From Lachnospiraceae bacterium UBA3863 (lineage in GTDB: Bacteria > Bacillota > Clostridia > Lachnospirales > Lachnospiraceae), in assembly GCA_002392385.1 (NCBI GenBank), contig DGGX01000141.1, positions 19,069 through 46,332 on the forward strand: a DNA stretch of 27,264 nucleotides, written 5' to 3'. The position numbers and the translations under genes were made by a program. This document shows positions 366 through 23,666 of the stretch, piece by piece (the first letter of the stretch is position 1; every line of letters starts with the position of its first letter). A model generated the notes under the pieces. That model was not told the origin of the DNA. It saw only the letters and a list, made by a program, of their open reading frames with translations, and made no database searches.

Positions 366-1250
366 ATGGATCTTATGAAATTCATCGGGACCTCCACCGG
401 TCCCAGAAAGATCGAATACAACTGGAGAGACATGGCGCTGTACGCCCTGGCGGTCGGCGCCGGTGAAAAAGATCTGCAGTACACCTTTGAGAAGAACATG
501 AAAGCGATCCCCAGCTTCGGCACTGTGCCGTACTGGAATGCTGTCAACAACTATCCCCAGAGACCGGCTCCTTATCCGGGCGCCTTCGTTGTACGCGAGG
601 CCCTGGAGAGGGAGGAAGGCGGCATCGTCAAGGGCCTTCACATGGAGCACACCCTGGTGATGCACCGTCCCATCGACCCCATTAAGGGCTCGCTGGTCTT
701 CGAGGATACGATCACCAATATCTATGACAGGGGAGAAGGCAAGGGCATCATCGTGGAGACCAAAGTCCCCGTGTACGATGAAGCCGGCAATCTCCTGTGT
801 GAGAACATCTCCAACACCATGTTCTTCACGCACGGAGGCTTCGGAGGCGAAGCACCTAAAAAGTCTTCCGTGAAAATACCTGACAGGGAGCCGGACTGCT
901 CACTGGAGTCGGTCCTCTCCCCGACAGCCAATATGCTGTATCGCCTGACGGGCGACACCAACAGGGTCCACGCGGATCCCGAGGTGGCGCAGGCAGAGGG
1001 ATTCCCCCGCCCCTTCATGCAGGGTCTCTGCTCCTTCGGTTATGCCTGCCGCATGGCCATAGAAGCGCTCATCCCCGGTGAACCGGAGAGAATGACCTGC
1101 ATCTCCGCCCAGATGCGCAGCATCTGCTTCCCCGGCAGCACCCTGCGTCTGGATGTCTGGAAGGAAGAGGAAGGCAGGGCGGTATTCAGGCTGGTCTGCG
1201 TGGAAGACGGCAAGCCGGTTCTGGACAGAGGGCTCTTTACCTGGAAATAA
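366..1250 (+). CDS. (R)-specific enoyl-CoA hydratase, double hot-dog MFE-2/MaoC type
   Basis: A protein of 294 residues built like the hydratase-2 part of eukaryotic multifunctional enzyme 2, with an N-terminal half hot-dog domain and a C-terminal catalytic MaoC domain. The N-terminal signature EYNWRDMALYALAVGAG (about residues 17-33) is typical. The hydratase-2 motif YRLTGDTNRVH (192-202) keeps the catalytic Asp197 and His202 and Asn199, although the usual Pro after Asn is Arg. FMQGLCSFGYACR (217-229) is the conserved follow-on segment. The family adds water reversibly to trans-2-enoyl-CoA to give (R)-3-hydroxyacyl-CoA. The ATG follows GGAAAGGAG at good spacing. Its neighbours, an acyl-CoA ligase and CoA-transferases, agree with work on CoA esters. 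A paralogue at 7134-8030 lacks the catalytic Asp. Direction and substrate are inference. Confidence 0.85.
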   Translation: MDLMKFIGTSTGPRKIEYNWRDMALYALAVGAGEKDLQYTFEKNMKAIPSFGTVPYWNAVNNYPQRPAPYPGAFVVREALEREEGGIVKGLHMEHTLVMHRPIDPIKGSLVFEDTITNIYDRGEGKGIIVETKVPVYDEAGNLLCENISNTMFFTHGGFGGEAPKKSSVKIPDREPDCSLESVLSPTANMLYRLTGDTNRVHADPEVAQAEGFPRPFMQGLCSFGYACRMAIEALIPGEPERMTCISAQMRSICFPGSTLRLDVWKEEEGRAVFRLVCVEDGKPVLDRGLFTWK

Positions 1251-1259
1251 GGAGTGAAG

Positions 1260-2897
1260 ATGCTCATAACGCAATTGATCACAGAAAATGCAAAGCACTA
1301 TCCCGATGAGCCGGCATTGATTGAAATCAACAGCAGGAAACAGATCCCCGGCAATGAAGAGGCCTATCGGAATGCCCGCAGAGAGCTGACCTGGAAAGAG
1401 ACAGAAGAAATGGTGTGCAGGATCGCCAACCTGTTTCTGGACAGAAGCTATGGCAAGGGCAGCCATATAGGCATCATCATGCGCAACAATCTGGAGTGGC
1501 TCCCGGTCTGGCTGGGAGTTCTCCGGATGGGGGGCGTGGTCGTTCCCCTCAATTACCGGAAAAGTGCAGAGGAGCTGTATGACCAGATCACCAGGGCTGA
1601 CCTGTGCGCGATCGTGGTGGACCCCTCCGCCGGACAGCGGCTCATGCCTGTACGCCACCGGCTCAGAAACGTTAAACAGGTCTTTGTATGCGGCAGCGGT
1701 TTCATGCTGCCCCAGGAGACGGAGAGTCTGCAGGAGGCCATTGAGAACAGTCGGCCTGAGGACCCGGGTATACCGTTGCTGCGTGAGGACGAGGCGGCGA
1801 TCTACTACTCTTCAGGAACGACCGGACAGCCCAAGGCAGTGGTCTATACCCACCATACGCTGGAAGAGGCCGTGATCCGTGAGTGGAAGAATCATCATCA
1901 GACCCACGGTGACTGCTTTATCTGCATCCCGCCGCTCTACCACGTGGGCGCCAAGCTCCACGCCTCCGGCAACCTCCTCGTGGGGGCGCCGACAGTGCTG
2001 ATGACAGGATTCAATGTGGCCTGCTTTTTCGAGATCCTTGAAAGAGAGAAGGTCAGCATCGCTTTCCTTCTGCTCCCCTGGGTACAGGACATCCTGGAAT
2101 GCCTGCGGGAGGGCACACTGGATCTTTCGGGACGGGACCTTCACGCTTTCCGCCTCCTCCACATGGGGGCACAGCTGATCCCGCCGGAGATCATCGCGAA
2201 GCTGCGCCGGCAGTGGCCGACCCTGTCGCTGGATATCAGCTACGGGCTCACGGAGTCCGGAGGGCCGGGCATCATGGACCTGGGAAGTGACAACATCGAT
2301 CGCGCGGGTTCCGTAGGCAGGCCTGCTCCCGGATGGGAGGCCATGATCACAGGACCCGACGGAAGCGAGATCACAGACGGTACGCCCGGAGAACTTCTGA
2401 TGAAGGGACCGGGCATGATGAAAGGATACCTGGACAATCCGGAGGCGACGGCCCAGGCGCTGGAGGGAGGATGGCTCCACACCGGCGATATCGCCCGCAG
2501 GGACAGCGACGGTTTCTATTATATCGTCGACCGGAAGAAAGACATCATCATCAGCGGAGGCGAGAATATCATTCCTGCTGAAGTGGAGCATTTCTTCCGG
2601 GAGCGCGGTGACATTGTAGACGCGGCGGTATTCGGCGTACCGCACAAGCGGCTCGGCGAGGTGGTGGCCGCCGTGGTCACGCTGTCGGCAGACAGTAAGG
2701 CTGGCCAGGAGGAGCTGGAAGCGTTTTGTGAGACGATCCCCTCCTTCATGCGGCCGCGGCATCTCTTTATCGGCCAGGTGATCCGCAACGCCACGGGCAA
2801 GGCAGATAAAAACGCCATGCGGAAACACTACGGTCCGATGTGCACGCCGGAGACTGATCTGCGCTGCCGACAGACCTGCTGCAAAGACAGACAGTAA
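1260..2897 (+). CDS. AMP-forming acyl-CoA synthetase (CaiC/BaiB-like)
   Basis: ANL-superfamily adenylating enzyme of about 545 residues that makes an acyl-CoA from a carboxylic acid, ATP and CoA. The core motifs are in order: P-loop YYSSGTTGQPK (182-192), YGLTE (329-333), WLHTGD (406-411), DRKKDIIISGGENI (425-438) and the C-terminal ATGK with the catalytic Lys near 515. I chose ATG 1260 because AAGGAG (1249-1254) sits 5 bp before it. A GTG at 1254 in the same frame overlaps that ribosome site. The gene begins 9 bp after the hydratase stop. The C-terminal tail carries an odd cysteine cluster (RCRQTCC) beyond the domain. Clustering with a CaiB/BaiF-like transferase recalls the carnitine (cai) and bile-acid (bai) systems, but the substrate pocket cannot be read. 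Confidence 0.9.
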   Translation: MLITQLITENAKHYPDEPALIEINSRKQIPGNEEAYRNARRELTWKETEEMVCRIANLFLDRSYGKGSHIGIIMRNNLEWLPVWLGVLRMGGVVVPLNYRKSAEELYDQITRADLCAIVVDPSAGQRLMPVRHRLRNVKQVFVCGSGFMLPQETESLQEAIENSRPEDPGIPLLREDEAAIYYSSGTTGQPKAVVYTHHTLEEAVIREWKNHHQTHGDCFICIPPLYHVGAKLHASGNLLVGAPTVLMTGFNVACFFEILEREKVSIAFLLLPWVQDILECLREGTLDLSGRDLHAFRLLHMGAQLIPPEIIAKLRRQWPTLSLDISYGLTESGGPGIMDLGSDNIDRAGSVGRPAPGWEAMITGPDGSEITDGTPGELLMKGPGMMKGYLDNPEATAQALEGGWLHTGDIARRDSDGFYYIVDRKKDIIISGGENIIPAEVEHFFRERGDIVDAAVFGVPHKRLGEVVAAVVTLSADSKAGQEELEAFCETIPSFMRPRHLFIGQVIRNATGKADKNAMRKHYGPMCTPETDLRCRQTCCKDRQ

Positions 2898-2935
2898 CTC
2901 AGAGAAACAGAAGATGAATAACAGGGAGAAGGATT

Positions 2936-4225
2936 ATGGCACAGAGATGGGAGACACTTGAAAGGATCCCCGCACCTGCAATGACACCGAAATTCGGGCC
3001 GCTGACGGGTATGCGTGTGCTTACTACCGGCGGATATCTGGCACTACCCAGGGCAGCAGTCATGCTGGGAGAATTCGGCGCTGAAGTGGTCTACCTGGAG
3101 CTTCCGGGTCACGGAGACAATTTCCGCAGCTTCTCGCCGATGATCGAAGATCCGAACGGCAAGAAGGTCGGCAGCGCGTGGGCAGCCATGCGGCGCAATA
3201 TCCTCAGCGTGACCCTGCAGACCAATCTCCGGAAGAATCCGGAGGCACGCGAGATCTTCAACTGCCTGATCAAAGAGGCGGACGTCTGGATCGAGAGCGT
3301 GGTCTGGCTGGAGAAGCTGGGGCTGTCAGACAAGGATCTTCTGGAGATCAATCCGAAGCTTGTTATCTGCCACATCAGCGGATACGGGAAGCCGGAGTTC
3401 GGCGGAGACCCAGCCATCTGCGATAAAGCGGCCTACGACATCAGCGGCCAGGCAGCCAGCGGCTGGATGATCCAGAACGGCGAACCGGACGGTGTACCTA
3501 TGCGCGGTAATCCGGGCCTGAGCGATTTCACCACCGGCTACTCGGCAGTGATCGGTGTCCTGCTCGCCTATATCAACGCGCAGAAGACCGGCCAGGGACA
3601 GGTGGTCGATGCCTCCATGTTCGAGGCGCAGGCCATGTACATCCAGGACTATGTGACTGCCTGGGTGGAAGCAGGCGTGATGAAACCCAGGACCGGCTCC
3701 AAGCAGTTCAACTTCCAGCCTTATGATGTATTTCTTGCCAGAGACGGCAAATACGTGGCTATGGGAGGCTTCGGTCCCGCGGTGTTCGAACGGATCGTCC
3801 GTGCGCTGGATCTGGATCCGGAGTACTACACCAGAGACTCGACGGGCAACGGCGTGGAAGCTGTCAATTCCCCCAAGGGAAGAGAATTTGACGCCTATGT
3901 CCGCAAATGGGTCGCGGACCGTGACGCCAAGGACGTCGTCGCTCACATGGACAAGTTCAAGGTGGCGGCACAGGTCGTCGTGGACGCCCAGGACATCGCC
4001 ACGGATCCTCATTGGATCGAGCGAGGCGACATCGTGAAGTACGAGGATCAGGAGCTGGGCCGCGATATCACGGCCGTCGGCGTGATCCCCAAGCTCTCCG
4101 GGACGCCCGGCCAGATCTGGCGCGGCGCTCCCCGTCTGGGACAGGATACAGATCTGGTCCTGAAGACACTCTGCGGATACAGCGAGGAAGAGATCCTGGC
4201 CTTCCGGGAGAAGGGCCTCATCTGA
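2936..4225 (+). CDS. Family III CoA-transferase, CaiB/BaiF subgroup
   Basis: A protein of 429 residues of the formyl-CoA transferase (CaiB/BaiF) family, which moves CoA between acids through a covalent Asp-acyl/CoA intermediate. The start PKFGPLTGMRVL and the end GQIWRGAPRLGQDT closely resemble carnitine CoA-transferase CaiB and bile-acid BaiF, closer than to FldA/HadA. The candidate catalytic aspartate is Asp197 in LSDFTTG, followed by TGQGQVVDASMFEAQ. The length matches BaiF (about 426). The ATG has AGGGAGAAGG just upstream and lies 38 bp after the ligase. Beside a ligase it may recycle CoA, the ligase priming the pathway and the transferase passing CoA from product to new substrate. That role is inference from the cai and bai systems. 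Confidence 0.9.
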   Translation: MAQRWETLERIPAPAMTPKFGPLTGMRVLTTGGYLALPRAAVMLGEFGAEVVYLELPGHGDNFRSFSPMIEDPNGKKVGSAWAAMRRNILSVTLQTNLRKNPEAREIFNCLIKEADVWIESVVWLEKLGLSDKDLLEINPKLVICHISGYGKPEFGGDPAICDKAAYDISGQAASGWMIQNGEPDGVPMRGNPGLSDFTTGYSAVIGVLLAYINAQKTGQGQVVDASMFEAQAMYIQDYVTAWVEAGVMKPRTGSKQFNFQPYDVFLARDGKYVAMGGFGPAVFERIVRALDLDPEYYTRDSTGNGVEAVNSPKGREFDAYVRKWVADRDAKDVVAHMDKFKVAAQVVVDAQDIATDPHWIERGDIVKYEDQELGRDITAVGVIPKLSGTPGQIWRGAPRLGQDTDLVLKTLCGYSEEEILAFREKGLI

Positions 4226-4285
4226 GATCCGTACATTTTAACATCGTTCAGCAATAAGAATCACTTATAGAGAAAGGAGCTCATT

Positions 4286-5524
4286 ATGTCAGAAATGTTT
4301 TGCGGTCAGCCTTTGAAGGGTATCAAAGTCGTGGACTTCACCGGTTACGGCGCAGGCCCCATGGCAGGCAGGATCCTCGGCGCCTGGGGCGCGGACGTCA
4401 TCAAGGTCGAGCCCCTCACCGGTGACGGCTCCCGTATCTCCGGTCTCGCGCTCGGACTTCGCGCGGACGAGGGTGCCAACCCGCACTACGAGCAGAAGGA
4501 CAGCAACAAGAGATCCATCGCTCTGAACCTGAAGACCAAAGAAGGCGCCGAGATCATGGACAAGCTCATTGCGGGCGCCAACATCTTCATCTCCAACTTC
4601 CGCATGAAAGCACTCAAGAAGCTCGGCCTGGACTATGAGACCATGTCCGCCAAGTATCCCCACATCATCTGGGGCAACATCAGCGGATTCGGCCATGAAG
4701 GCCCGGATGCTGACAATGCCGGTTTCGATACCGTTTCTTACTGGGCCAAGAGCGGCATGATGATCGACTGGTGCGAAGACGGCTATGCTCCTCTGATCCC
4801 TCCTTTCGGCCTTGGTGATACCGTCATCGGCGCTTATCTGGCCGGCGGCGTTGCCACCTGCCTGCTGCAGCAGAAGCTGACCGGCAAGGGCGAGAAGGTC
4901 GTGGCTTCCCTGTACGGAAGCGGCATGTACTCCCAGGCGTGGGTCCTGCAGTCCGTGTACAGAGGCGCCAAGTATCCCCGCAGCCGCAAGTATGCCGACA
5001 GCCCGATGCGCAACACCTACAAGACCAAGGACGGCGAGTGGGTCATGCTGTCCGTGCTGATGTATGACCGCTACTATCCGACCTTCGTCAAGATGATCGG
5101 ACATCCTGAGATGATCGACGATCCCCGTTACAACAGCGAGACCGGCATCATGCAGAACCAGGAGGCCAAGAGAGAGTTCGTCGAGATGATCGACGAGGTC
5201 TTCGCGACCAAGACCTGGGAGGAGTGGCACAAGATCCTGATCGAGAACGACATCGCTCATGACAAGATCAATCACCTGTCCGAAGTCCTTCTGGACAATC
5301 CGCAGACAGTTGCAAACAACAACGCGTATCTGTACAAGAACCGCGACGGCAGCGAAGACCTCATGGTCGCGGATCCCATCCGTTTCGGCGGCTTCTACAA
5401 GATCCCCTTCAAGAACGCTCCTCTGTGCGGCGAGCAGACCACCGAGATCCTGAACGAAATCGGCTACGACGCGGAGGCTGTCAAGGGCTTGATCGAGGCC
5501 GGCGTTGTGAAGCAGCACGACTGA
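4286..5524 (+). CDS. Family III CoA-transferase, FldA/HadA-like (copy 1)
   Basis: A protein of 412 residues of the CaiB/BaiF fold, nearer to FldA (cinnamoyl-CoA:phenyllactate CoA-transferase) and HadA (2-hydroxyisocaproate CoA-transferase) than to the transferase just upstream. Visible motifs are LKGIKVVDFTGYGAGPMAGR (10-29), WGADVIKVE, GLDYETMSAKYP and the candidate catalytic Asp178 in FGLGDTVIGA. It is clearly paralogous to the product of 8750-9961 (shared blocks around SNFRMKAL, PHIIWG and SYWAKSG). AGAAAGGAG precedes the ATG. Family members exchange CoA between a 2- or 3-hydroxy acid and its reduced or dehydrated product. Next to a hydratase and a permease, a hydroxy-acid substrate is plausible but unproven. 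Confidence 0.88.
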   Translation: MSEMFCGQPLKGIKVVDFTGYGAGPMAGRILGAWGADVIKVEPLTGDGSRISGLALGLRADEGANPHYEQKDSNKRSIALNLKTKEGAEIMDKLIAGANIFISNFRMKALKKLGLDYETMSAKYPHIIWGNISGFGHEGPDADNAGFDTVSYWAKSGMMIDWCEDGYAPLIPPFGLGDTVIGAYLAGGVATCLLQQKLTGKGEKVVASLYGSGMYSQAWVLQSVYRGAKYPRSRKYADSPMRNTYKTKDGEWVMLSVLMYDRYYPTFVKMIGHPEMIDDPRYNSETGIMQNQEAKREFVEMIDEVFATKTWEEWHKILIENDIAHDKINHLSEVLLDNPQTVANNNAYLYKNRDGSEDLMVADPIRFGGFYKIPFKNAPLCGEQTTEILNEIGYDAEAVKGLIEAGVVKQHD

Positions 5525-5545
5525 TCAAAAACGTGACCGGTCCGG

Positions 5546-5572
5546 GTGCGCGGCGCATGCCGCGCCGCGCAC
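5546..5572 (+). other. GC-rich intergenic hairpin between CoA-transferase and permease
   Basis: A perfect 10-bp inverted repeat (GTGCGCGGCG / CGCCGCGCAC) with a 7-base loop. No U-tract follows, so it is not a classic terminator. It may stabilise the upstream transcript end or lower permease expression. Confidence 0.55.
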
Positions 5573-5650
5573 TGCGGATCGTTAAGAGGGGAGAGACAGT
5601 TTTTATCAGGAGAGCGGCTACCAACCACTTTCCGGAATGGAGAGGGAACT

Positions 5651-6970
5651 ATGTCTGACATTTTAAGTATTATTGGAATGATCGTTGCCCTGGCAGCTCT
5701 GTCCTTCATGGTCATGAAGGGCGTGAACATTTTCATCGCTGCCATCGTGAGTTCGCTGATCGTCGCTGTTACCGGCGGCATTCCGCTCTACGAAGCACTG
5801 CAGACCAACTACATGGGCGGTTTCACAGGCTTCTTTGGCGGCAACTTCCTGATATTCGTGGCAGGCGCTATCATGGGCCAGGTCTATGAGAAGACCAACG
5901 GCGCCAAGGCGATCGCCCGCATGATCATCAACGGCCTGGGCAAGCAGGCGGCGATCGTGGCCGTTCCGCTGGCCATCGGTATCCTGACCTACGGCGGCAT
6001 CGCCGGTTTCGTGGTCTGCTTCGCAGTTTTCCCGATCGCTCTGGAGATCTACCGTGAGGCGGATATCCCGAGAAGATTTATCCCCGGTGCCATCGTCTTC
6101 GCGTGCTGCACCTTCTCCGCTATCGGCCCCGGCAACCCGCAGGTCGGAAACGTGGTCCTGCAGAATGCACTGGGAACGACCCTGATGGCCGGTGCCGTGG
6201 TCGGCTTTGTCGCCACCATCGTCACGCTGGTCGTAGGCGTCTTCATGCTGACGGTCATGGTCAAGAGGGCACAGGCGGCCGGTGAACATTTCGTCGCAAA
6301 GCCCACCGACAAATTCGATGACGACGCGGTCTGCCCCAACGGCTGGCTGGCACTGGCGCCTTTGGCACTTACTCTGATCCTGATCAACATCAAGGTCGGC
6401 GGAGCACAGATCATCCCTACCCCCTTCGGCGTGTTCCTGGGCTCCGTCCTTGCCTACATCGTGCTCAGAAAGTATAAGACCGATCCGACACCGGTCATGG
6501 ATCTGCTTGCGAACGGCATTCGCAATGCCGTCACAGCAGCTGCCAATACCTCGGCAGTCGTCGGTTTCGGCAGCGTTGTCAAGGCGGCCAGCGGCTTCCC
6601 GGTGCTGTGCTCTGCCATTGAGAACATCCCCGGCCCGCCGCTCGTAGCAGTGGCACTGGCAACCACCATTATTGCCGGTATCTGCGGCAGTGGCTCCGGC
6701 GGTCTGGGCATCGCCGCTCCGATCCTGAAACCCATCTTCGTTGACGGACTGGGCATCAACATCAACGTCCTGCACCGTATGATGATGGTCGCATCCTGCG
6801 GTCTGGATTCCCTGCCGCACAACGGATTCGTCGTCACCGTGATCAACGGTGTCTGCGGCGAGACCCACAAGGATGCCTACATGCCGGTCTTCTGGCTGAC
6901 CGTCGTCACGCCTCTTATTGCGACGGCTGTATCCATCATCCTGTTTACGCTGTTCCCGAATCTGCCGTAA
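5651..6970 (+). CDS. GntP-family organic-acid permease
   Basis: Secondary transporter of 439 residues with about 12 hydrophobic segments spread over the whole length, typical of the GntP (gluconate:proton symporter) family. Characteristic stretches are the N-terminal MKGVNIFIAAIVSSL, ILTYGGIAGFVVCFAVFPIA, the loop IGPGNPQVGNVVLQNALGT and a C-terminal SLPHNGFVVTVI. The frame is open upstream to 5546, but ATG 5651 is preceded by GAGAGGGA and starts with the expected first membrane helix, while the upstream segment encodes a hairpin. It is the last gene of block A before the terminator near 7050. Position suggests it imports the acid handled by the neighbouring ligase and transferases. GntP members carry many anions, so the substrate stays open. 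Confidence 0.85.
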   Translation: MSDILSIIGMIVALAALSFMVMKGVNIFIAAIVSSLIVAVTGGIPLYEALQTNYMGGFTGFFGGNFLIFVAGAIMGQVYEKTNGAKAIARMIINGLGKQAAIVAVPLAIGILTYGGIAGFVVCFAVFPIALEIYREADIPRRFIPGAIVFACCTFSAIGPGNPQVGNVVLQNALGTTLMAGAVVGFVATIVTLVVGVFMLTVMVKRAQAAGEHFVAKPTDKFDDDAVCPNGWLALAPLALTLILINIKVGGAQIIPTPFGVFLGSVLAYIVLRKYKTDPTPVMDLLANGIRNAVTAAANTSAVVGFGSVVKAASGFPVLCSAIENIPGPPLVAVALATTIIAGICGSGSGGLGIAAPILKPIFVDGLGININVLHRMMMVASCGLDSLPHNGFVVTVINGVCGETHKDAYMPVFWLTVVTPLIATAVSIILFTLFPNLP

Positions 6971-7031
6971 GGCTGTGACCGGGCTTTGTGACCATCCGAA
7001 AACAACCGGGGCAGTGATCTGATCCGGCACC

Positions 7032-7065
7032 AAAAGGGCCCCCGCACTTGCCGGGAGCCCTTTTT
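7032..7065 (+). terminator. Rho-independent terminator ending block A
   Basis: Stem AAAAGGGC / GCCCTTTT, then one C/A mismatch and CCCG / CGGG around a 7-base loop, followed by a five-T run. It lies 61 bp after the permease stop. Confidence 0.9.
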
Positions 7066-7073
7066 CAAAAAAA

Positions 7074-7092
7074 GGCTTCTTCCTGCGAAGCC
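7074..7092. other. Small inverted repeat upstream of block B
   Basis: GGCTTC and GAAGCC separated by 7 bases, between the block A terminator and the ribosome site of the second hydratase. It could be an operator or a leader hairpin. No convincing -35/-10 or -24/-12 promoter was found in the 68 bp between the terminator and 7134. Confidence 0.35.
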
Positions 7093-7133
7093 ATCCTGTT
7101 GTAATTGTAATGATTTTTTGAAGGAGGGCGAAG

Positions 7134-8030
7134 ATGAATCTGAAGAATTACAGGACTCCCGAGGACTGGATCGGATACAGAGACCACGACAAATCGGTCG
7201 AGTACAACTACCGGGACGTCGTTCTATATGCTGTTGCGGTCGGCGCCGGCAAGGATGAGCTGCAGTATGTATGGGAGAAGAGCGATGATTTCCAGGCGAT
7301 CCCTACTTTCGCCGTAGAGCCGAGTTTCTGCGGTTATCACCAGCCGCGGTCCTGGACTTTGAATCACCCCAGCATGCTGGTACAGGAGTCACTGGGAGAT
7401 GCGGAAGGGATGGATTTCTCACAGGAGTTTTTCCTGTACCGTCCTTTTGATCCGCTGAAGGGCACGTTTATCTGGCATAACGAGATCAATAAGATCTATG
7501 ACAGAGGCCCCGGGAAGGGCATCCTCTGCGCGGTGGACCAGCCGATCTACGATGAGGCATGCCGGCCGCTTGGCAAGCTCGTCAGCACGACGGTCGTCTT
7601 CGCGGGCGGCGGCTTCGGCGGGGAGAAGCCTCCCAAACCGGTGTCCCTGATCCCCGACAGAGTCCCGGATTACGTAAAGGACGAGTGGATCCCGGAGATG
7701 AACCAGGTGATCTACGGTGCGGCGACTGGGACGTCGATCCCTGTGCACAGCGACGGAGAATACTGCAGAAGAATCGGAATGAAGGATGTCGTCATACATG
7801 GCCAGGTGGTCTTCGGCTACGCCGCCCGTATGGCAATCGAGGGCTTCATACCCGGAGAGGGCTTCCGCATGACGCACATGTTCACGAGCATCCGCAATCC
7901 CACATATCCCAACAGCCATATCCGATTCGAAGGCTGGAAGATCGCAGAGGGAAAGGTCGCCTTCCGGCTGACTGACACGGATACGGACCGTCCGCTTCTG
8001 ATCAACGGACTGTTTGAATACAGAGAATAG
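7134..8030 (+). CDS. Hydratase-2-like double hot-dog protein lacking the catalytic Asp
   Basis: A protein of 298 residues paralogous to the product of 366-1250. Shared features are EYNYRDVVLYAVAVGAG (23-39), the block around YDRGPGKGI and GQVVFGYAARMAIEGFIPGE. At the active-site motif, where family members have G-D-x-N-P-x-H, this protein reads GTSIPVH (199-205). His205 remains, but the catalytic Asp is Thr200 and the Asn is Ile202, with one extra residue just upstream. AAGGAGGGCG before the ATG is strong, and the frame is full length, so this is not simple decay. It may be a non-catalytic partner of the other hydratase, a CoA-ester binding protein, or an enzyme with different chemistry. Family assignment is firm; function is open. 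Confidence 0.82.
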   Translation: MNLKNYRTPEDWIGYRDHDKSVEYNYRDVVLYAVAVGAGKDELQYVWEKSDDFQAIPTFAVEPSFCGYHQPRSWTLNHPSMLVQESLGDAEGMDFSQEFFLYRPFDPLKGTFIWHNEINKIYDRGPGKGILCAVDQPIYDEACRPLGKLVSTTVVFAGGGFGGEKPPKPVSLIPDRVPDYVKDEWIPEMNQVIYGAATGTSIPVHSDGEYCRRIGMKDVVIHGQVVFGYAARMAIEGFIPGEGFRMTHMFTSIRNPTYPNSHIRFEGWKIAEGKVAFRLTDTDTDRPLLINGLFEYRE

Positions 8031-8040
8031 AGGAAAATGC

Positions 8041-8700
8041 GTGAAATGGATTAAAAAAACAGTCTTTCTGTTCATCAGCCTGGCGATCATCACTTTCGGT
8101 GTGGCATTTTCGATCCGCGGCAATCTGGGGATCTCGCCGATCAGCAGCATCCCTTATGTCCTGAGCTTGTTCACACCTCTCTCTGTGGGCGTCGCTTCGA
8201 TGCTGGTCAACGGTTCCCTGATCCTGCTGCAGGTGTTGGTGCTGAAAAAGGATTTCAAGCTATACCAGCTGCTGCAGATCCCGATGGTCGTGGTCTTTGG
8301 ATGGCTGCAGGACTTCGCACTGTGGGCAACACAGGGTATGGGCTACCAGAACTACCTGCAACAGTGGCTGCTGTGCCTCCTGGGGGTCGTGACCCTGGGG
8401 ATCGGCGTTGCGGGAGAGATCGTTGTCGCCGTCATGACCATGCCGGCGGAGGGCCTGAACCTGGCTATCTGCAGCAAGTATCCCGTGAAGCCCGGCAACG
8501 TCAAGATCGCCATCGACTGCAGCCTGGTGGCCGGCGCGATCCTGATCTCCCTGCTGTTCCTCCATCGACTGGAGGGCGTGCGGGAGGGGACGATCGCCGC
8601 AGCTGTCCTGGTGGGCACGGTGGTCAAACTGGTGATGAAGCCGGTGCAGGCTGCCGAGCGCGCTTTTACCGGGGACGGACAGGAGGAAGCAGATACCTGA
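8041..8700 (+). CDS. YczE-like integral membrane protein
   Basis: A protein of 219 residues with about five or six hydrophobic segments. The N-terminal pattern FGVAFSIRGNLGISPISSIPY resembles Bacillus YczE and related YitT/YczE-type membrane proteins, which have no settled biochemical role. I chose GTG 8041, which follows AGAGGA by 6 bp. A longer frame starting at TTG 8014 would overlap the hydratase gene. It sits between a hydratase and a CoA-transferase in one block, so it may export or import a pathway compound, although the family is not proven to transport. The C-terminal tail (after about residue 205) is hydrophilic and acidic. Confidence 0.7.
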   Translation: MKWIKKTVFLFISLAIITFGVAFSIRGNLGISPISSIPYVLSLFTPLSVGVASMLVNGSLILLQVLVLKKDFKLYQLLQIPMVVVFGWLQDFALWATQGMGYQNYLQQWLLCLLGVVTLGIGVAGEIVVAVMTMPAEGLNLAICSKYPVKPGNVKIAIDCSLVAGAILISLLFLHRLEGVREGTIAAAVLVGTVVKLVMKPVQAAERAFTGDGQEEADT

Positions 8701-8714
8701 AACAGTCAAATACA

Positions 8715-8734
8715 GCCGCCGGAGAGCCGGCGGC
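8715..8734 (+). other. Hairpin just upstream of the second CoA-transferase ribosome site
   Basis: A perfect 8-bp stem GCCGCCGG / CCGGCGGC with an AGAG loop, ending a few bases before the CGGAG ribosome site of the gene at 8750. There is no T-run. It could be a transcript-processing or translation-tuning element. Confidence 0.5.
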
Positions 8735-8749
8735 GGAACGGAGACACAT

Positions 8750-9961
8750 ATGACAGATATGCCCTTAAAAGGAGTCGTCGTTATCGAATTCGCCATCCAC
8801 GGCGCGGGATGCGCGGTCGGCAAGGTCCTCGCGGACTGGGGCGCGGACGTGATCAAGGTGGAGACACCCACCGGCGATGTCGCCCGCAATTCCGGCCTGC
8901 AGCTGAACCTCCCCTGTACGGAGGAGAGCAACATCCACTTTGAGATGCTCAGCGGCAACAAGCGGTCCATCGTCCTCGACATGAAGACGGAGGAAGGCCG
9001 GGAAGTCATGGAGAAGATGCTGGCAGGCGCCAACATCTTCTTCAGCAACTTCCGGATGAAAGCCCTCAACAAGTTCGGCCTGGACTATGAATCCGTGTCG
9101 AAGCGCCATCCCCACATCATCTGGGGCCACCTCAGCGGCTACGGGACGGACGGGCCTCTGGCCGGCGCGCCAGGCTTCGACGTGGTCTCGTACTGGGCCA
9201 AGTCGGGCCTCCTGATCGACTTCACCGAGAAGCATTCCCTGCCCAATACCGCACCTTTCGGCGTGGGCGACTTCAGCGCCGGCGCGATGCTGGCGGGCGC
9301 CATGGCGGCCTGCCTCTATCAGCAGGAGAAGACCGGCAAGGGCCAGAAGGTCATGAACTCCCTCTATGGGCACGCCATCTGGACCGCGGGCAGTCTGGTC
9401 CAGTCCACGCAGCACGGGGACAAGTTCCCGAAGACGCGAAAACAGGCCATGTCCCCCTTCATCAACTCCTACCGCTGCAGCGACGAGTGGTTCTTCTGCG
9501 CGGTCATGGACTACGCCGGCAAGTTCCCGCTGCTCTGCGAGATGATCGGCCGCCCGGAGCTGGCGGAGGATCCGCGCTTCAGCACGCTGGGCGCTGCGCA
9601 GAAGAACAAGCCGGAACTGATCGCCATCTTCGATGCCTGGTTCGCCGGCCAGCCCTGGGAGAAAGTGGACCGTCTGCTGACGGAGGCAGACATCGTGCAC
9701 ACCAAGATCGCGCACTTCGCAGACGTGGCGGGGGACGAGCAGGCGCGGGCCAACGGATACGTCTATAATTTCACGGACCGCAGAGGAGAGACGGATCTCG
9801 TGGTCTCCACGCCCGTGAAGTTCGGCCGCAATGAGCCGACGCCGCACCGCAACGCACCGCTGCTGGGCGAGCAGTCCGAGGAGATCCTGCGCCAGTTTGG
9901 CTTCAGCGAGGAGGACATTGTCCATCTGGAAGCTGCCGGCACGGTCGTGCAGCACGCGTGA
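8750..9961 (+). CDS. Family III CoA-transferase, FldA/HadA-like (copy 2)
   Basis: A protein of 403 residues of the CaiB/BaiF fold, paralogous to the product of 4286-5524. Both share GANIFxSNFRMKAL, GLDYE, PHIIWG, GFDxVSYWAKSG and a C-terminal NAPLxGEQxxEIL. The candidate catalytic residue is Asp174 in FGVGDFSAGA. The N-terminus LKGVVVIEFAIHGAGCAVGKVLADWGADVIKVE is the usual Rossmann-like CoA-binding start. CGGAG precedes the ATG. It is the last gene of block B, followed by a strong terminator. Keeping two FldA-like copies next to two hydratase copies suggests either sequential steps or two related substrates. Confidence 0.88.
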   Translation: MTDMPLKGVVVIEFAIHGAGCAVGKVLADWGADVIKVETPTGDVARNSGLQLNLPCTEESNIHFEMLSGNKRSIVLDMKTEEGREVMEKMLAGANIFFSNFRMKALNKFGLDYESVSKRHPHIIWGHLSGYGTDGPLAGAPGFDVVSYWAKSGLLIDFTEKHSLPNTAPFGVGDFSAGAMLAGAMAACLYQQEKTGKGQKVMNSLYGHAIWTAGSLVQSTQHGDKFPKTRKQAMSPFINSYRCSDEWFFCAVMDYAGKFPLLCEMIGRPELAEDPRFSTLGAAQKNKPELIAIFDAWFAGQPWEKVDRLLTEADIVHTKIAHFADVAGDEQARANGYVYNFTDRRGETDLVVSTPVKFGRNEPTPHRNAPLLGEQSEEILRQFGFSEEDIVHLEAAGTVVQHA

Positions 9962-10005
9962 AGGACCTGCAGCAAACAGATCCAGTAAACAGATCCCGTG
10001 ACCGA

Positions 10006-10040
10006 CAAGGGGCGCCGCATTTGCGGCGCCCCTTGTTTCT
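10006..10040 (+). terminator. Rho-independent terminator ending block B
   Basis: A perfect 13-bp stem (CAAGGGGCGCCGC / GCGGCGCCCCTTG) with an ATTT loop, followed by TTTCT. It lies between the convergent CoA-transferase and regulator genes. The T-rich tail is on the + strand only. Confidence 0.88.
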
Positions 10041-10071: not shown

Positions 10072-12111
10072 TTACAGGTTATATTTCTTCATCCAGCGAT
10101 AGAGCGTCTTGCGGGAGATGTCCAGTTCGCGGGCGGTGTCCTCGCGGCGGTAGTGGTTGCGCAGGAGGGCTTCTTTGAGGTCCTGGACCGTGAGCCTGCC
10201 GCGGTTGGAGAGGAGGAGCTCCTCCTGCGGGTCCTCCGCCTTCTCGCCGCCTTCCGCAGATGGTTCTGCGGGTCCCGCAGGAGTACCTTCTGCCAGCATC
10301 CGCTCCGTACGAAGCGCCTGGGGGTCATTGAGGTCATCGATGGCTCCTATGTAGTACATGATGTGCCGGGGCTGCACGGTATCGACCGGCAGCGTCTGTA
10401 CGACCCCTTCCATAATGTTCTGCAGCTCCCGGACATTGCCGGGCCAGGACAGCGTCTTGAGATATTCCACGGCTTCCGGGGACAGGGACACCGGGTGGGT
10501 GACCGTCCCTCTCTCAAACAGCTTCCAGAGAAAATACTTCGAGAGAAGCGTCACGTCATTTCCGCGCTCCCGCAGCGGCGGCAGCTGCAGACGCAGCACG
10601 CTCAGGCGGTAGTAGAGATCCAGCCGGAACTTGCCCTGCCGAATTCGCTCGTGCAGGTTGGCGTTGGTGGCGCTGATGATCTTGACGTCCACGTTGATGG
10701 TCTGTTTGCCGCCCACCCGGGTGAAGCTCTTTTTCTCGATCACCTGCAGAAGCATGACCTGCAGGTCCAGGGGCATGTCCCCGATCTCGTCCAGGAAGAT
10801 GGTACCGCCGTTGGCCAGCTCGAATTTGCCGATGTGGCCGCCCTTTCTGGCACCGGTGAAGGCACCCTGGTCATAGCCGAACAGCTCGCTCGCGATGAGT
10901 TCCCGGGGGAGGGCACCGCAGTTGACGGAGACAAAAGGCTTGTCGCAGCGGGCGCTCTCCGCGTGGATGGCCTGGGCAAAGATGTCCTTGCCGACGCCGC
11001 TCTCGCCCAGGATCAGCACGTTGCTGTCGCTCTGCGCATAACGGCGGGCTTTGTTTTTGGCGCTGATGATGCCCGGGCTCGTGCCGATGATGTCGTTGAA
11101 GGAGAGGAGCATGTTATTGCCGATCTGCTTCGAGACATGCGCCGCGGTCTGTTCCAGGCTGGTGATATAGATGCGGATCCCCTGGATGCAGATGCCGGGA
11201 TCGCTGAAGGGGTCAGTGGAAACGGTATAATCCAGAAGATGTCCGCGGACACGCAGCCGGAGCTGGATGTTCTCCACGCGCCGCCTTTCATGCAGGATCT
11301 CCCACAGCTCCGGGTTCTCCGGCGGAGGATCGAAGAGACCTTCCACAGGGGTGAAGGACAGGTTTTCCTCCCCCAGGTGGAAGAGCTTGCGAAGAGTGTT
11401 GTTGAAATATGTGACGGACAGCTTGCCAGTCTTCCAGCTCTCGTCCACGATCAGCAGACCGCGGGGCTCGAATTCATACATGTGATGCAGGGACATGGAC
11501 ATATACATGTGCACGTTGGCATCGTTGGTTGCCAGCACGGCTGTTCCCAGAAGATCCGGACGCCTGTACTCATAGGGGACGATCACGGCCAGCCCGCCGA
11601 TCACTTTGGAGGCGCCGCTTTTGTCCACGGTAACAGGAGAGAAATACATGGCGGTATCCACCAGCATCCGGCAGTAGTTGTCAGCCCCTTCCATGGCGAC
11701 CGGTCGCTCGGACAGAAGGCCCACAGAGACGGCGTTCGCGCCCAGATGCGGGATATCCCATCGCGACAGGGGAACGATTCCGCGCGCCTCGGCGTATTCC
11801 ATGAAGGCCTCTCCGCCAAAAAGCTTCAGGAGGATCCCCTCTTTATTGAACAGGGCGAAACCGAGCTGCGGGGTATCGCGGTAATACCGGAGGCTCTGGT
11901 ACATGACTCTGCTGATATAAGCATAGAGCATGCGTGAATTTTTCTTGCGCTCGGCGAAGGGAAGGGTCAGATCCATTGCCGGCCTTGCCAGATCCGGATC
12001 CACACCGGCCTCCCGGGACAGGTCCCAGTAGGTGGAAAGCTCCGGCGACAGATCATTGCCGGGAAGGCCTGAGTGATGACTTTTCCAGTTTTCGAGAACA
12101 GCAGGATCCAT
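10072..12111 (-). CDS. Sigma-54-dependent transcriptional activator (AcoR-like architecture)
   Basis: Enhancer-binding protein of about 679 residues. The N-terminal 330 residues look like a GAF/PAS-type sensor, as in AcoR-like regulators. The AAA+ domain follows, with Walker A GESGVGKD (about 367), GAFTGA (about 415, the sigma-54 contact loop) and Walker B GTIFLDEIGDM (about 434). An acidic Pro/Glu-rich linker leads to a C-terminal Fis-type helix-turn-helix (TARELDISRKTLYRWMKKY). I chose ATG 12111 because AAGGAGG lies 11 bp upstream and an extended -10 lies at 12184-12189. The frame is open to 12204, but those starts lack ribosome sites and the farthest lies upstream of that promoter. Position suggests it senses a pathway compound and activates the CoA-transferase blocks. 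No -24/-12 promoter was found in front of block B, so the target is unproven. Confidence 0.9.
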   Translation of the reverse strand: MDPAVLENWKSHHSGLPGNDLSPELSTYWDLSREAGVDPDLARPAMDLTLPFAERKKNSRMLYAYISRVMYQSLRYYRDTPQLGFALFNKEGILLKLFGGEAFMEYAEARGIVPLSRWDIPHLGANAVSVGLLSERPVAMEGADNYCRMLVDTAMYFSPVTVDKSGASKVIGGLAVIVPYEYRRPDLLGTAVLATNDANVHMYMSMSLHHMYEFEPRGLLIVDESWKTGKLSVTYFNNTLRKLFHLGEENLSFTPVEGLFDPPPENPELWEILHERRRVENIQLRLRVRGHLLDYTVSTDPFSDPGICIQGIRIYITSLEQTAAHVSKQIGNNMLLSFNDIIGTSPGIISAKNKARRYAQSDSNVLILGESGVGKDIFAQAIHAESARCDKPFVSVNCGALPRELIASELFGYDQGAFTGARKGGHIGKFELANGGTIFLDEIGDMPLDLQVMLLQVIEKKSFTRVGGKQTINVDVKIISATNANLHERIRQGKFRLDLYYRLSVLRLQLPPLRERGNDVTLLSKYFLWKLFERGTVTHPVSLSPEAVEYLKTLSWPGNVRELQNIMEGVVQTLPVDTVQPRHIMYYIGAIDDLNDPQALRTERMLAEGTPAGPAEPSAEGGEKAEDPQEELLLSNRGRLTVQDLKEALLRNHYRREDTARELDISRKTLYRWMKKYNL

Positions 12112-12183
12112 AAAAGCTACATCCTCCTTATAGATTTCATCGCGCATAAAATGGCGGATACAAGACGACCACGCGATGACAAA

Positions 12184-12189
12184 AGTATA
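12184..12189 (-). promoter_or_regulatory. Extended -10 element for the sigma-54 activator gene
   Basis: Read on the - strand, TGT then TATACT gives an extended -10 about 70 bp before the chosen start. No good -35 is present at 17 bp, which fits an extended -10 promoter. Confidence 0.45.
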
Positions 12190-12200
12190 ACACATACAGG

Positions 12201-12230
12201 ACATTTTTGCCTTTTAATCGCCAAAAATGT
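12201..12230. promoter_or_regulatory. 9-bp inverted repeat, candidate operator upstream of the activator gene
   Basis: ACATTTTTG and CAAAAATGT are perfect inverted arms separated by 12 bp, centred about 28 bp upstream of the activator's -10. The spacing suits a dimeric regulator, possibly autoregulation by the Fis-type HTH. On the - strand the interior also shows GG and GC with -24/-12 spacing (TTGGCGATTAAAAGGCA), a weak sigma-54-like match. Confidence 0.45.
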
Positions 12231-18121: not shown

Positions 18122-18237
18122 GTATAGCTAGAACTAACAGGATCGGAGCATTGGATATTTCAAGTGCCCGGTCTTTTTCTTATTATAGAGGCCGGTAGAA
18201 AAGATTAGTTTCCAATAACAGGCAGAGGGATTAAATT

Positions 18238-20358
18238 ATGGTACAGAGATTCGGGAAAGCAGTTGTAAAAGCAAGGTTCTTTATTCTGGTACTGGCCCTT
18301 GTTCTTCTGATCCCGGCCGGATACGGCGCGCTGCACACAAGGATCAATTATGATCTGCTGACATACCTGCCGGATACCATCGAGACGATCCGCGGGCAGG
18401 ATATTCTGGCGCAGGATTTCGGTACAGGCGCCATCACCATGCTGATGGTCGAGGGGCGGAGCGACAAGGAGATCGAGGCCATCAAGGAGAGGATCGAGAA
18501 GGTCCCGCATGTGAACAAGGTCATCTGGTATGACAGCTTCATGGACATCTCCGTCCCCAAGGAGATCCTGCCCCAGAAACTGCTGGATGCCTTTGTAAAA
18601 GGGGACGCGACCCTCATGGCGGTGACCTATGATTCCACCACCTCCTCGGACGAAACCATGGATGCCATCACGGAGATCCGCAAGGGTCTGGACGAGGGAG
18701 CCTGGCTGCAGGGCATGAGCGCGGTGGTCACGGACACCAAGGACGTGGCGGAGGCCGAGGAACCGATCTATATCCTGATCGCGGTGGTCCTGTCCTCCAT
18801 CGTTCTGGCCCTGAGCATGGACACCTTCCTGGCACCGGTCTTTTTCCTGCTTTCCATCGGCATTGCTATCCTTTATAATCTGGGTACCAATTACTTCTTC
18901 GGTGAGATCTCTTATCTGACCAAAGCACTGGCGGCTGTTCTGCAGCTGGGCGTCACCATGGACTATTCCATCTTCCTGTGGCACAGCTTCAAGGAAGAGG
19001 AAGAACTGCATCCGGGCGACGAGGAGGCGGCCATGGCGGAGGCCATCGGCAGGACCCTGCAGTCCGTCGTGGGCTCCAGCATCACCACCATCGCCGGTTT
19101 TGCCGCTCTGTGCTTTATGACCTTCCGGTTCGGACTGGATGTGGGCATCGTCATGATGAAAGGCGTGGCGCTGGGCGTCGTGAGCTGCGTGACCGTCCTG
19201 CCCTCCATGATCCTGACCTTCAACAAACTGATCGAAAAGACCCGTCACAAGCCTTTCCTGCCGCGGTTCGAAAGACTGCCGGCCTTCGTACAGAAGCATT
19301 ACAGAGCCATTCTGATCGCCTTCTGTCTGGTCTGGATCCCGGCCACCTACGGCTACACCCACACCGAGGTCTTCTATGACCTGCTGGACACGCTGCCGGA
19401 GGACCTGCCTTCCATGCAGGCCAACAGGAAGCTGGACGAGACCTTTAATCTGGACAATACGCTGATGATCCTGGCGGACAGCGAGCTGGACAACAAGACA
19501 GCCACCGAGATGTGCGACGAGATCCTGGAGACGGACGGAGTCCTGAACGTCATCGGTCTGGATGCCTTCCTGGGCGGCGCTGTCCCGGAGGAGGTCCTCC
19601 CGGCGGACATCCTGGGGGAGCTCTCCACAGACAAGTATCAGCTGATCCTGGTAAACAGTGAATATAAGACAGCCACGGACGAGATGAACACCCAGATCGA
19701 TCAGATCAACGCGATCATGGACCGCTATGATGAGAATGCCATGCTGATCGGCGACGCGCCCTGCACGCGGGATCTGATCAATATCTCCAACCGTGACTTC
19801 AACGTGGTCAACTGGGTGTCCATTGCCTTCATTTTCCTGATCGTCGCTGTAGTCTTCAGCTCGGTCTCCCTGCCCTTCATCCTGGTGCTGGTGATCGAAT
19901 GCGCGATCTTCATCAATATGGCGATCCCTTACTTTACGGGCGTTTCGCTTCCCTTTATTGCCTCTATCGTCATCGGTACCATCCAGCTGGGCTCCACCGT
20001 GGACTACGCGGTCCTGATGACCAGCCGCTACCAGCAGGAGAGGAAGAGCGGCAAGACCCGGGAAGAGGCGGTCCGGATCGCCCACAGCAGCTCTATCGTG
20101 AGTGTCATCGTGAGTGCCATGAGCTTCTTCGCGGCCACCATCGGTGTGAGCCTCTACTCCAGGATCAGCATCATCTCGTCTCTGTGCACGCTGATGGCCA
20201 GAGGCGCCCTGATCAGTATGTTTACGGTCTTGCTGGTTCTGCCGGCGGCCTTCATGCTGCTGGATCCCCTGATCGTCCGCACCAGCAGAGGATTCCTCCC
20301 CGAAGGAAGGCGATTCCTGCGCGGACGCAGACACAAGGGAGAGACCCAGACCGTCTGA
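18238..20358 (+). CDS. MMPL/RND-family exporter
   Basis: Membrane protein of 706 residues with the internal duplication of RND transporters: one TM helix (about 13-33), an extracytoplasmic domain, five helices, then the same pattern again (TM about 355, five helices about 525-680). The duplicated core appears as LQLGVTMDYSIFLWHSFKEE in the first half and IQLGSTVDYAVLMTSRYQQE in the second, each with an in-membrane Asp expected to carry protons. MMPL proteins export lipids or hydrophobic compounds. GCAGAGGGA precedes the ATG. A TATTAT near 18181 may be the -10, with no clear -35. It is followed by an exported heptad-repeat protein and a MntP-like protein, together a likely envelope system. Confidence 0.88.
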   Translation: MVQRFGKAVVKARFFILVLALVLLIPAGYGALHTRINYDLLTYLPDTIETIRGQDILAQDFGTGAITMLMVEGRSDKEIEAIKERIEKVPHVNKVIWYDSFMDISVPKEILPQKLLDAFVKGDATLMAVTYDSTTSSDETMDAITEIRKGLDEGAWLQGMSAVVTDTKDVAEAEEPIYILIAVVLSSIVLALSMDTFLAPVFFLLSIGIAILYNLGTNYFFGEISYLTKALAAVLQLGVTMDYSIFLWHSFKEEEELHPGDEEAAMAEAIGRTLQSVVGSSITTIAGFAALCFMTFRFGLDVGIVMMKGVALGVVSCVTVLPSMILTFNKLIEKTRHKPFLPRFERLPAFVQKHYRAILIAFCLVWIPATYGYTHTEVFYDLLDTLPEDLPSMQANRKLDETFNLDNTLMILADSELDNKTATEMCDEILETDGVLNVIGLDAFLGGAVPEEVLPADILGELSTDKYQLILVNSEYKTATDEMNTQIDQINAIMDRYDENAMLIGDAPCTRDLINISNRDFNVVNWVSIAFIFLIVAVVFSSVSLPFILVLVIECAIFINMAIPYFTGVSLPFIASIVIGTIQLGSTVDYAVLMTSRYQQERKSGKTREEAVRIAHSSSIVSVIVSAMSFFAATIGVSLYSRISIISSLCTLMARGALISMFTVLLVLPAAFMLLDPLIVRTSRGFLPEGRRFLRGRRHKGETQTV

Positions 20359-20378
20359 CGACAGACAGTCCATTTCCT

Positions 20379-23500: not shown

Positions 23501-23666
23501 GAAGGTGGCGGACCTCTACCGCACCGACATCCGGTCCATCGATGACAGGATCATGGAACTCAAGAACGCGTCCGGGACCTACAAGACCTTCACCGGTGAG
23601 CAGACGAATCCGGACAGCAGTGTGAAATTCATCATCAAGACAGACGGGATCGAGAAGGACAACTGA
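20526..23666 (+). CDS. Very large exported XXXLXXG heptad-repeat protein
   Basis: A protein of 1046 residues. The signal peptide is clear (MKRKQ, then a hydrophobic core, cleavage near VLA-AD at about residue 29). A globular N-terminal domain (about 50-265) contains KEETVYIFADAEGNQKDI and FPGMQESL. Two long blocks follow of heptads with Leu at position 4 and Gly at 7 (LADGAGELSDG type; about 310-550 and 770-1000), the pattern seen in YhgE/Pip-type proteins. They are separated by an Ala/Ser-rich helical stretch (about 550-770). There is no C-terminal membrane helix or sortase motif. AAAGGTGAG precedes the ATG. Encoded after the MMPL exporter, it is probably an extracytoplasmic rod or adaptor for it. 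Function is inferred only. Confidence 0.82.
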   Translation: MKRKQVIALMLSLALTAGIGARPVTVLAADTYTADASAQEDRDLEADLTAAVREAAGLAQKEETVYIFADAEGNQKDITVSGWLKNPDGAQTLKDSTTAADLENVKGDETFTVNGSEVTWDAAGKDIYYQGTTDREPPVTEKISYYLDGRKVAPGELAGATGKVTIHIDYTNHARRGNVYVPFTAVTGLVLSNDHVKNVAVDNGSVLSEGKNTVVVGMAFPGMQESLEAAKTDAEDLLDKADASDKARQKLTDMEIPGSVEITFDAEDFEMSTCLTMVFAGALDSEDEKELDEDHSSIFDNMDSKITDLEDDGQLLADGAGELSDGIGEAASGSRDLADGAGDLADGIRKYTDGVSQLTDGSATLAQGLTDALGGTTQLSEGLKEYANGVAQVDKGAQDLAAGSQKLKGNSEELRKGADQLDKGLAQLYEGLAGEETQKQVAALVQGGKDLSAAADQLGKSAGTIVSTVRQLADGLAQITGSKHANSEALRQGAQQLADGAGQVTEGLSQAQSGAQQLSKAIEQYTEGMAGAAGSVAEAATTLSEGASGIGTAAENFSKAAGQVRDALKQDFAGEADKLESALAQLEKDASSLSGDAKQVQSAAADLKGSLGDIQSSAAQKGRNAAASGDSVYQSAVNAIDQSELSDEDKALAIEALKSAGIAGQVDSATASAADTAAAEAVSGMSGKAGDVADKADSLASAADSLSGDMDAVSKAGKTLAEDAGQADTAMTAMEGALTDLDTAAANMKQGIGAVTEAAGTLQGAMNNAQQTSRQLSHSASGLADSMGQLQKGASQVSEGLGGSNGLAQNISSYTKAVDQAADLTEQFAAGLEDEKEGLQAGAAALQQGIGQYTGGVEQLAQSLGEAGAGVKQLSDGAAQLSTGIQQYTAGADQIADGAGQLAEGTQALKDSSAQLLGGMQSLEDGARQLKDGADQIAGGTAELNKNSEALNKGTSQLSDGAQKLADGMAQILSGSIELKDGCATLNEEGVRKVADLYRTDIRSIDDRIMELKNASGTYKTFTGEQTNPDSSVKFIIKTDGIEKDN

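Follow-up and report, generated by a model that had tools for sequence, protein, structure and literature searches.

Family III coenzyme A (CoA)-transferases exchange CoA between acids, and acyl-CoA dehydrogenases interconvert enoyl- and acyl-CoA; crotonases act on (S)-3-hydroxyacyl-CoA and hydratase 2 enzymes on (R)-3-hydroxyacyl-CoA. According to the available part of PMC3823801, mutating the Asp, His or Gly of the active site of P. capsici MaoC abolished activity to different degrees. Here, a gene cluster with enzymes of these kinds is described from Lachnospiraceae bacterium UBA3863, in a 27,264-nucleotide stretch of contig DGGX01000141.1 (G000:C217:19069-46332; the window). The source is a metagenome-assembled genome of 2.4 Mb (G000; 72.6% complete, 4.4% contaminated). 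The cluster comprises two blocks, A and B, each encoding a family III CoA-transferase (CoAT-A and CoAT-B) and a hydratase-fold protein (proteins A and B). What is new is protein B, a variant of a known enzyme kind. Neither a cluster of this kind nor a double hot-dog hydratase devoid of the catalytic Asp was the subject of any paper among the literature matches listed, which is no proof of absence.

The original prediction had called both proteins hydratases. That name suits protein A, a double hot-dog protein matching the hydratase 2 motif YRLSGDxNxLHIDP (YRLTGDTNRVHADP), but it is doubtful for protein B. The catalytic Asp was absent from all 14 B rows of the alignment, two of which (xG050 and P0135) are nearly one sequence, whereas it was kept in 191 of the 192 other hydratase rows (190 distinct, many of them close kin). 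Protein B also lacked the motif Arg. The active-site His was kept and the helix Gly was invariant in the B rows (14/14 each), the protein was under sequence constraint, indicating preservation by selection, and structure prediction rendered the double hot-dog of the hydratase 2 fold. Since the lost Asp is the residue that positions water, protein B most likely performs a different reaction on a CoA ester. The same loss in block B supports the earlier proposal that the two halves of the cluster took different roles. A constrained, conserved member of a well-studied fold without an essential residue offers a clean start for finding new CoA chemistry.

Position 94, in the N-terminal half, is Asp in protein B; among the non-B rows it was Asp in 6 of 192 and mostly His or Asn elsewhere. 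These six include P0174, the sole non-B row that lacks the motif Asp; the remaining five have both Asp residues. P0089, which belongs to these five, is the sister of P0174, and for this reason Asp94 probably preceded the loss of the motif Asp in the P0174 lineage. A tree was calculated without the trait columns from 82 of the 206 rows, namely all 20 that have Asp94 or lack the motif Asp and 62 further ones. On it, Asp94 changed four times and the motif Asp was lost twice, each time in a lineage that carries Asp94. The tree does not tell which of the two events came first in the B clade itself, and testing the association of Asp94 with Asp loss by independent pairs yielded two pairs, too few to reach significance. 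We tentatively propose, as a possibility rather than an expectation, that protein B founds a hydratase-2-fold family of anaerobic gut bacteria with a moved catalytic acid, in which Asp94 and the retained His205 would serve a new CoA-ester reaction.

MaoC heterodimers in which one partner is inert are described (available part of PMC11321319), and P. capsici MaoC needs dimerisation (available part of PMC3823801). Protein B might accordingly dimerise with hydratase A as its non-catalytic partner, in the manner of ChsH2 with ChsH1. This is unlikely: uncultured Lachnospiraceae RUG830 (G050; 88% complete) has a single hydratase-family match (E ≤ 1e-20), which is of the B type, so that B occurs there without A, and protein B retains the His that ChsH2 lost. 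Less probable still is a role as an acyl-CoA-binding sensor or regulator. A precedent is FapR, a hot-dog protein that is no longer catalytic and has a regulatory role (available part of PMC2698920), and protein B adjoins a membrane protein; however, no DNA-binding domain was matched in protein B, and its His and helix Gly are invariant. Both roles are thus disfavoured by the occurrence of B as sole family member in G050 and by the two invariant residues, and an enzyme with altered chemistry remains the preferred reading.

Besides Lachnospiraceae bacterium UBA3692 (G041), none of the 98 relatives examined exceeded 41% identity to protein B. In all three genomes in which a B-type protein was seen (G000, G041 and G050), it shares a block with a CoAT-B-type enzyme, with the YczE-like gene between them in G000 and G041 and the two genes adjacent in G050. 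The hydratase family as a whole was present in 9 of the 62 genomes of the genus in the collection used (E ≤ 1e-20; own genome counted), and in 2 of 392, 1 of 391 (own genome only) and 2 of 398 genomes of the order, class and phylum samples, respectively (E ≤ 1e-40; own genome counted). None of the 78 pattern-matching stretches of viral contigs encoded a relative. In UBA3692 the genes from the acyl-CoA dehydrogenase to CoAT-B stand in the same order, close to the end of the contig, which argues against an accident of assembly or binning. In G050, a MoaF-domain protein is encoded directly 5' of the CoAT-B-like and B-type genes (L028, 168-1016).

The genes and hairpins of the window are listed in Table 1. 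All the named genes of the original prediction (two hydratases, two CoA-transferases, a ligase, a CaiB-like protein and a YczE-like protein) were present as open frames. It had also placed two GntP-type permeases within 366-9961; both exist, but only GntP2 lies inside, GntP1 being represented by its C-terminal end just before. The body of GntP1 lies upstream of the window on the contig (L021, which includes a masked stretch) and is complete in UBA3692. The cluster likewise starts upstream, on the same strand, and block A reads acyl-CoA dehydrogenase, crotonase, GntP1, hydratase A, ligase, CaiB-like protein, CoAT-A and GntP2. Block B consists of protein B, the YczE-like protein and CoAT-B. The paralogues resemble each other far beyond chance, both the hydratases P0002 and P0007 (38% identity over 292 columns; E 4e-61) and the CoA-transferases P0005 and P0009 (48% over 403 columns; E 4e-131). 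The family III CoA-transferases scored 285 to 307 bits with PF02515, over its cut-off, and CoAT-A, CoAT-B and the CaiB-like protein aligned around an active-site Asp that we take to be the catalytic one. For the ligase, none of the 25 NCBIfam models listed (of 104 matched) exceeded its cut-off. Farther along the window, 18205-20373 holds long frames on both strands (722 and 706 amino acids), the minus-strand one without a Pfam family over cut-off; open reading frame calling retains some shadow frames. A 1,046-amino-acid protein at 20526-23666 also matched no Pfam family over cut-off.

Table 1. Genes and hairpins of the cluster in the window
Feature	Position	Strand	Evidence
GntP-type permease 1 (GntP1), C-terminal 112 amino acids	3..341	+	33% over 107 columns to GntP2; 99% to full-length UBA3692 copy
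Hydratase A (P0002), double hot-dog (R)-enoyl-CoA hydratase 2 type	366..1250	+	PF22622 and PF01575 over cut-off; full motif YRLTGDTNxVHAD; best solved relative 3kh8
AMP-forming acyl-CoA ligase	1254..2897	+	PF00501/PF13193
CaiB-like family III CoA-transferase	2936..4225	+	PF02515; NF002914 247 bits, below cut-off 413; best solved relative E. coli CaiB 1xk6
Family III CoA-transferase A (CoAT-A, P0005)	4286..5524	+	PF02515; sister of CoAT-B plus G050 enzyme
GntP-type permease 2 (GntP2), probable start ATG 5651	5546..6970	+	PF02447 45.6 bits, cut-off 22.5; sister of GntP1
Terminator-like hairpin and U-run between GntP2 and hydratase B	7032..7064	+	-19.8 kcal/mol, z -2.4 folded alone
Hydratase-fold protein B (P0007), hydratase 2 fold, catalytic Asp absent, His present	7134..8030	+	
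YczE/DUF6198-like membrane protein	8014..8700	+	PF19700 35.2 bits, cut-off 27; NF052291 43 bits, below cut-off 205
Family III CoA-transferase B (CoAT-B, P0009)	8750..9961	+	PF02515; CoA-transferase tree
Strong terminator-like 15-bp hairpin between CoAT-B and regulator	10004..10037	+	-32.8 kcal/mol, z -6.8
Sigma-54 activator protein, candidate cluster regulator	10072..12204	-	PF00158, AAA lid, Fis-type helix-turn-helix

The gene content, the lineages of GntP and the CoA-transferases within the samples, the loss of Asp and the sequence constraint are direct results, while substrate, direction, promoter use, terminators and the chemistry of block B are inferred. We give about even chances to a two-block cluster that takes up small hydroxy- or unsaturated acids and converts them in CoA-linked steps, with a different chemistry in block B. 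GntP would import the acid, and the CoA-transferases would load it with CoA taken from the product acyl-CoA, the ligase priming the cycle. Dehydration would follow by hydratase A for the (R)-form or by the crotonase for the (S)-form; the acyl-CoA dehydrogenase would then reduce the enoyl-CoA, and the reduced acid would leave. In block B, a CoA-transferase of the same lineage would work with protein B on another ester. The direction is probably reductive: GntP import and the absence of any lyase or thiolase among the annotated genes of the cluster fit the reduction of an acid taken up from outside, with CoA being cycled, as in the cai system. The module had been termed catabolic in the original prediction, a term that these genes do not bear out: a reductive scheme fits the acyl-CoA dehydrogenase, the crotonase and the CoA-transferases at least as well.

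The same enzyme types also serve beta-oxidation, and a hydratase locus of G046 (L033) carries a thiolase and two acyl-CoA dehydrogenases. An oxidative cluster, in which imported hydroxy acids would be activated and degraded through beta-oxidation with a thiolase encoded elsewhere in the genome, is nevertheless rather improbable, given that neither a thiolase nor a 3-hydroxyacyl-CoA dehydrogenase was found among the 11 genes and that a priming ligase alongside CoA-transferases suits CoA cycling. Several observations weigh against the reductive, sigma-54-driven scheme as well. The genome of the window, 72.6% complete, yielded no match to the alpha subunit of electron transfer flavoprotein (ETF), while UBA3692 has two; the proposal leaves the details of the ligase and of the CaiB-like and YczE-like proteins unexplained; and the structure of protein B was predicted with canonical rows in the alignment, a shared fold showing no function. 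On the regulatory side, the end of block B lies about 13 kb downstream of the sigma-54 site (see below), itself a consensus match; when two mismatches were allowed, the window, L021 and L027 did not contain more matches than expected by chance.

Functions like those of CaiA, CaiB, CaiC and CaiD are all present, and the best curated and structural match of the CaiB-like protein is CaiB. An operon for carnitine or crotonobetaine reduction is still very unlikely, the least probable of the functions considered: the CaiB model score remained at 247, against a cut-off of 413, and neither GntP in place of a BCCT carrier nor two MaoC-type hydratases are known from cai operons. A further candidate, FldA/HadA-like CoA-transferases as named in the original prediction, was rejected. 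Nothing beyond PF02515 family III membership was found, no NCBIfam cut-off was passed, and no 2-hydroxyacyl-CoA dehydratase partner occurred among the annotated genes around the CoA-transferases; in both genomes the dehydratase (HGD-D) genes are found on different contigs, where the stretches read contained no such CoA-transferase.

Related modules recur. A module of enoyl-CoA hydratase, GntP, CoA-transferase and acyl-CoA dehydrogenase genes was complete in G008, G046, G028 and G006, and G045 has its first three genes before the contig ends. In the window's own genome, contig C28 carries a CoA-transferase, a hydratase, a GntP and an acyl-CoA dehydrogenase, the last named by similarity, and a module in G363 combines a GntP 44 to 46% identical to GntP2 with ETF alpha and acyl-CoA dehydrogenases. 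The genome of the window encodes seven hydratase paralogues in all, five of them on C28, C235, C208 and C168; there, neighbors were named by eye as short-chain dehydrogenase/reductase, aldo-keto reductase, MmgE/PrpD-like and amidohydrolase-like. A larger cluster in UBA3692 (L127, G041:C89) encodes, judged by similarity to the set in the window, two GntP permeases, two crotonase-like proteins, a ligase-like protein and four family III CoA-transferases, of which one is truncated where the stretch ends.

The phylogenies were in partial agreement with a duplicated module. The CoA-transferase and GntP samples comprised the genus and a few chosen genomes, rows that agreed in their last 80 (GntP) or last 120 to 150 residues (CoA-transferases) being entered once. 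GntP1 and GntP2 were sisters (support 100/99; 26 rows), and their next relatives (90/91) were the GntPs of the recurrent four-gene module (G008, G045, G046 and G028). CoAT-A was the sister of a group formed by CoAT-B and the G050 enzyme (99/97; 37 rows). A position of CoAT-A among the C28, G053 and core-module enzymes was rejected (approximately unbiased [AU] test, p 0.007), and joining CoAT-A to CoAT-B excluding G050 was weakly rejected (p 0.036), although both p-values are optimistic, the alternative groups having been named after the tree was seen. Within these samples, duplication of the permease and CoA-transferase pair is thus supported by these sister relationships.

For its part, hydratase A grouped with P0021 and P0022 (100/100) among canonical enzymes in a 44-row tree, while B formed a separate clade (13 rows, 100/100), and A is closer to the C28 paralogue (60%) than to B (38%). 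Forcing A and B into one clade cost 6.6 log units and was not rejected (AU p 0.34), and a duplicated triplet including the hydratase is possible only. The earlier view, a single tandem duplication of the entire GntP-hydratase-CoA-transferase triplet followed by rapid evolution of hydratase B, would explain why the order GntP-hydratase-...-CoAT occurs twice, why GntP and CoA-transferase pairs are each sisters, and why a joint hydratase clade is tolerated. It is possible but doubtful, as A is placed among canonical enzymes in all three hydratase trees and B has a long stem of its own, G050 has B with the CoA-transferase and no adjoining GntP (nor any GntP2 match in its genome at E ≤ 1e-15), and a terminator-like hairpin separates GntP2 from hydratase B. 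Compared with UBA3692 (L027) in 250-base steps, the window showed 97 to 100% identity over 251-2250 and 3001-6750, 73 to 81% in 2251-3000 (the ligase end), 71 to 98% beyond 7000 and about 76 to 90% upstream of the window. This mosaic suggests that block A was recently exchanged by homologous recombination.

A perfect TGGCAC-N5-TTGC sequence, the consensus of the sigma-54 -24/-12 element, was located directly 5' of the acyl-CoA dehydrogenase gene in both G000 (L021:6893) and UBA3692 (L027:6109). The 25 loci around modules (386 kb; L026, L035, L037, L038, L041 and L128 left out) contained 11 strict sigma-54 sites, compared to a simulated mean of 0.77 (30 simulations, maximum 3), while the window itself had none. 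Block A is probably driven by one predicted sigma-54 promoter, activated by the regulator encoded beyond block B. Strict sites were also present on C28, C235 and C208. Together, recurrent hydroxyacid-type modules and sigma-54 sites in the genus would point to a little-studied route of gut Lachnospiraceae for small organic acids and electron disposal. Block B, flanked by the two terminator-like hairpins, may for that reason form a separate transcript. A promoter and terminator scan listed neither hairpin; it yielded 7 promoter-like and 12 terminator-like sites, versus 4.8 and 8.4 in shuffles, and no Rfam match reached the gathering score. When 7020-7135 was folded whole, the 3' arm of the first hairpin preferred pairing with the ribosome-binding region of the hydratase B gene (7050-7130), possibly a switch, or chance. 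UBA3692 (L027) has a hairpin of different sequence at the same place (z -5.7).

Several described systems resemble the cluster in part. The enterobacterial cai operon likewise joins an acyl-CoA dehydrogenase, a crotonase, a family III CoA-transferase and a ligase; the present cluster differs by its GntP permeases, hot-dog hydratases and sigma-54 activator and by a score below the CaiB cut-off. With the FldABC and HadABC systems for phenyllactate or hydroxyisocaproate it shares a family III CoA-transferase, but no 2-hydroxyacyl-CoA dehydratase was seen in the cluster. The itaconyl-CoA and mesaconyl-CoA hydratases (8khg and 8hgn) are hot-dog hydratases too, and itaconate degradation also uses a CoA transferase (available part of PMC12290011). 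Compared to the hydratase 2 enzymes (MFE-2 hydratase, P. capsici MaoC 3kh8 and human 1s9c), protein B is devoid of the motif Arg and Asp and carries Asp94 in place of what is mostly His or Asn. A MaoC domain without the catalytic dyad has a precedent in ChsH1-ChsH2 (available part of PMC11321319). However, ChsH2 pairs with a catalytic partner and has lost its His, whereas protein B is a double hot-dog protein that keeps the His and occurs without A in G050.

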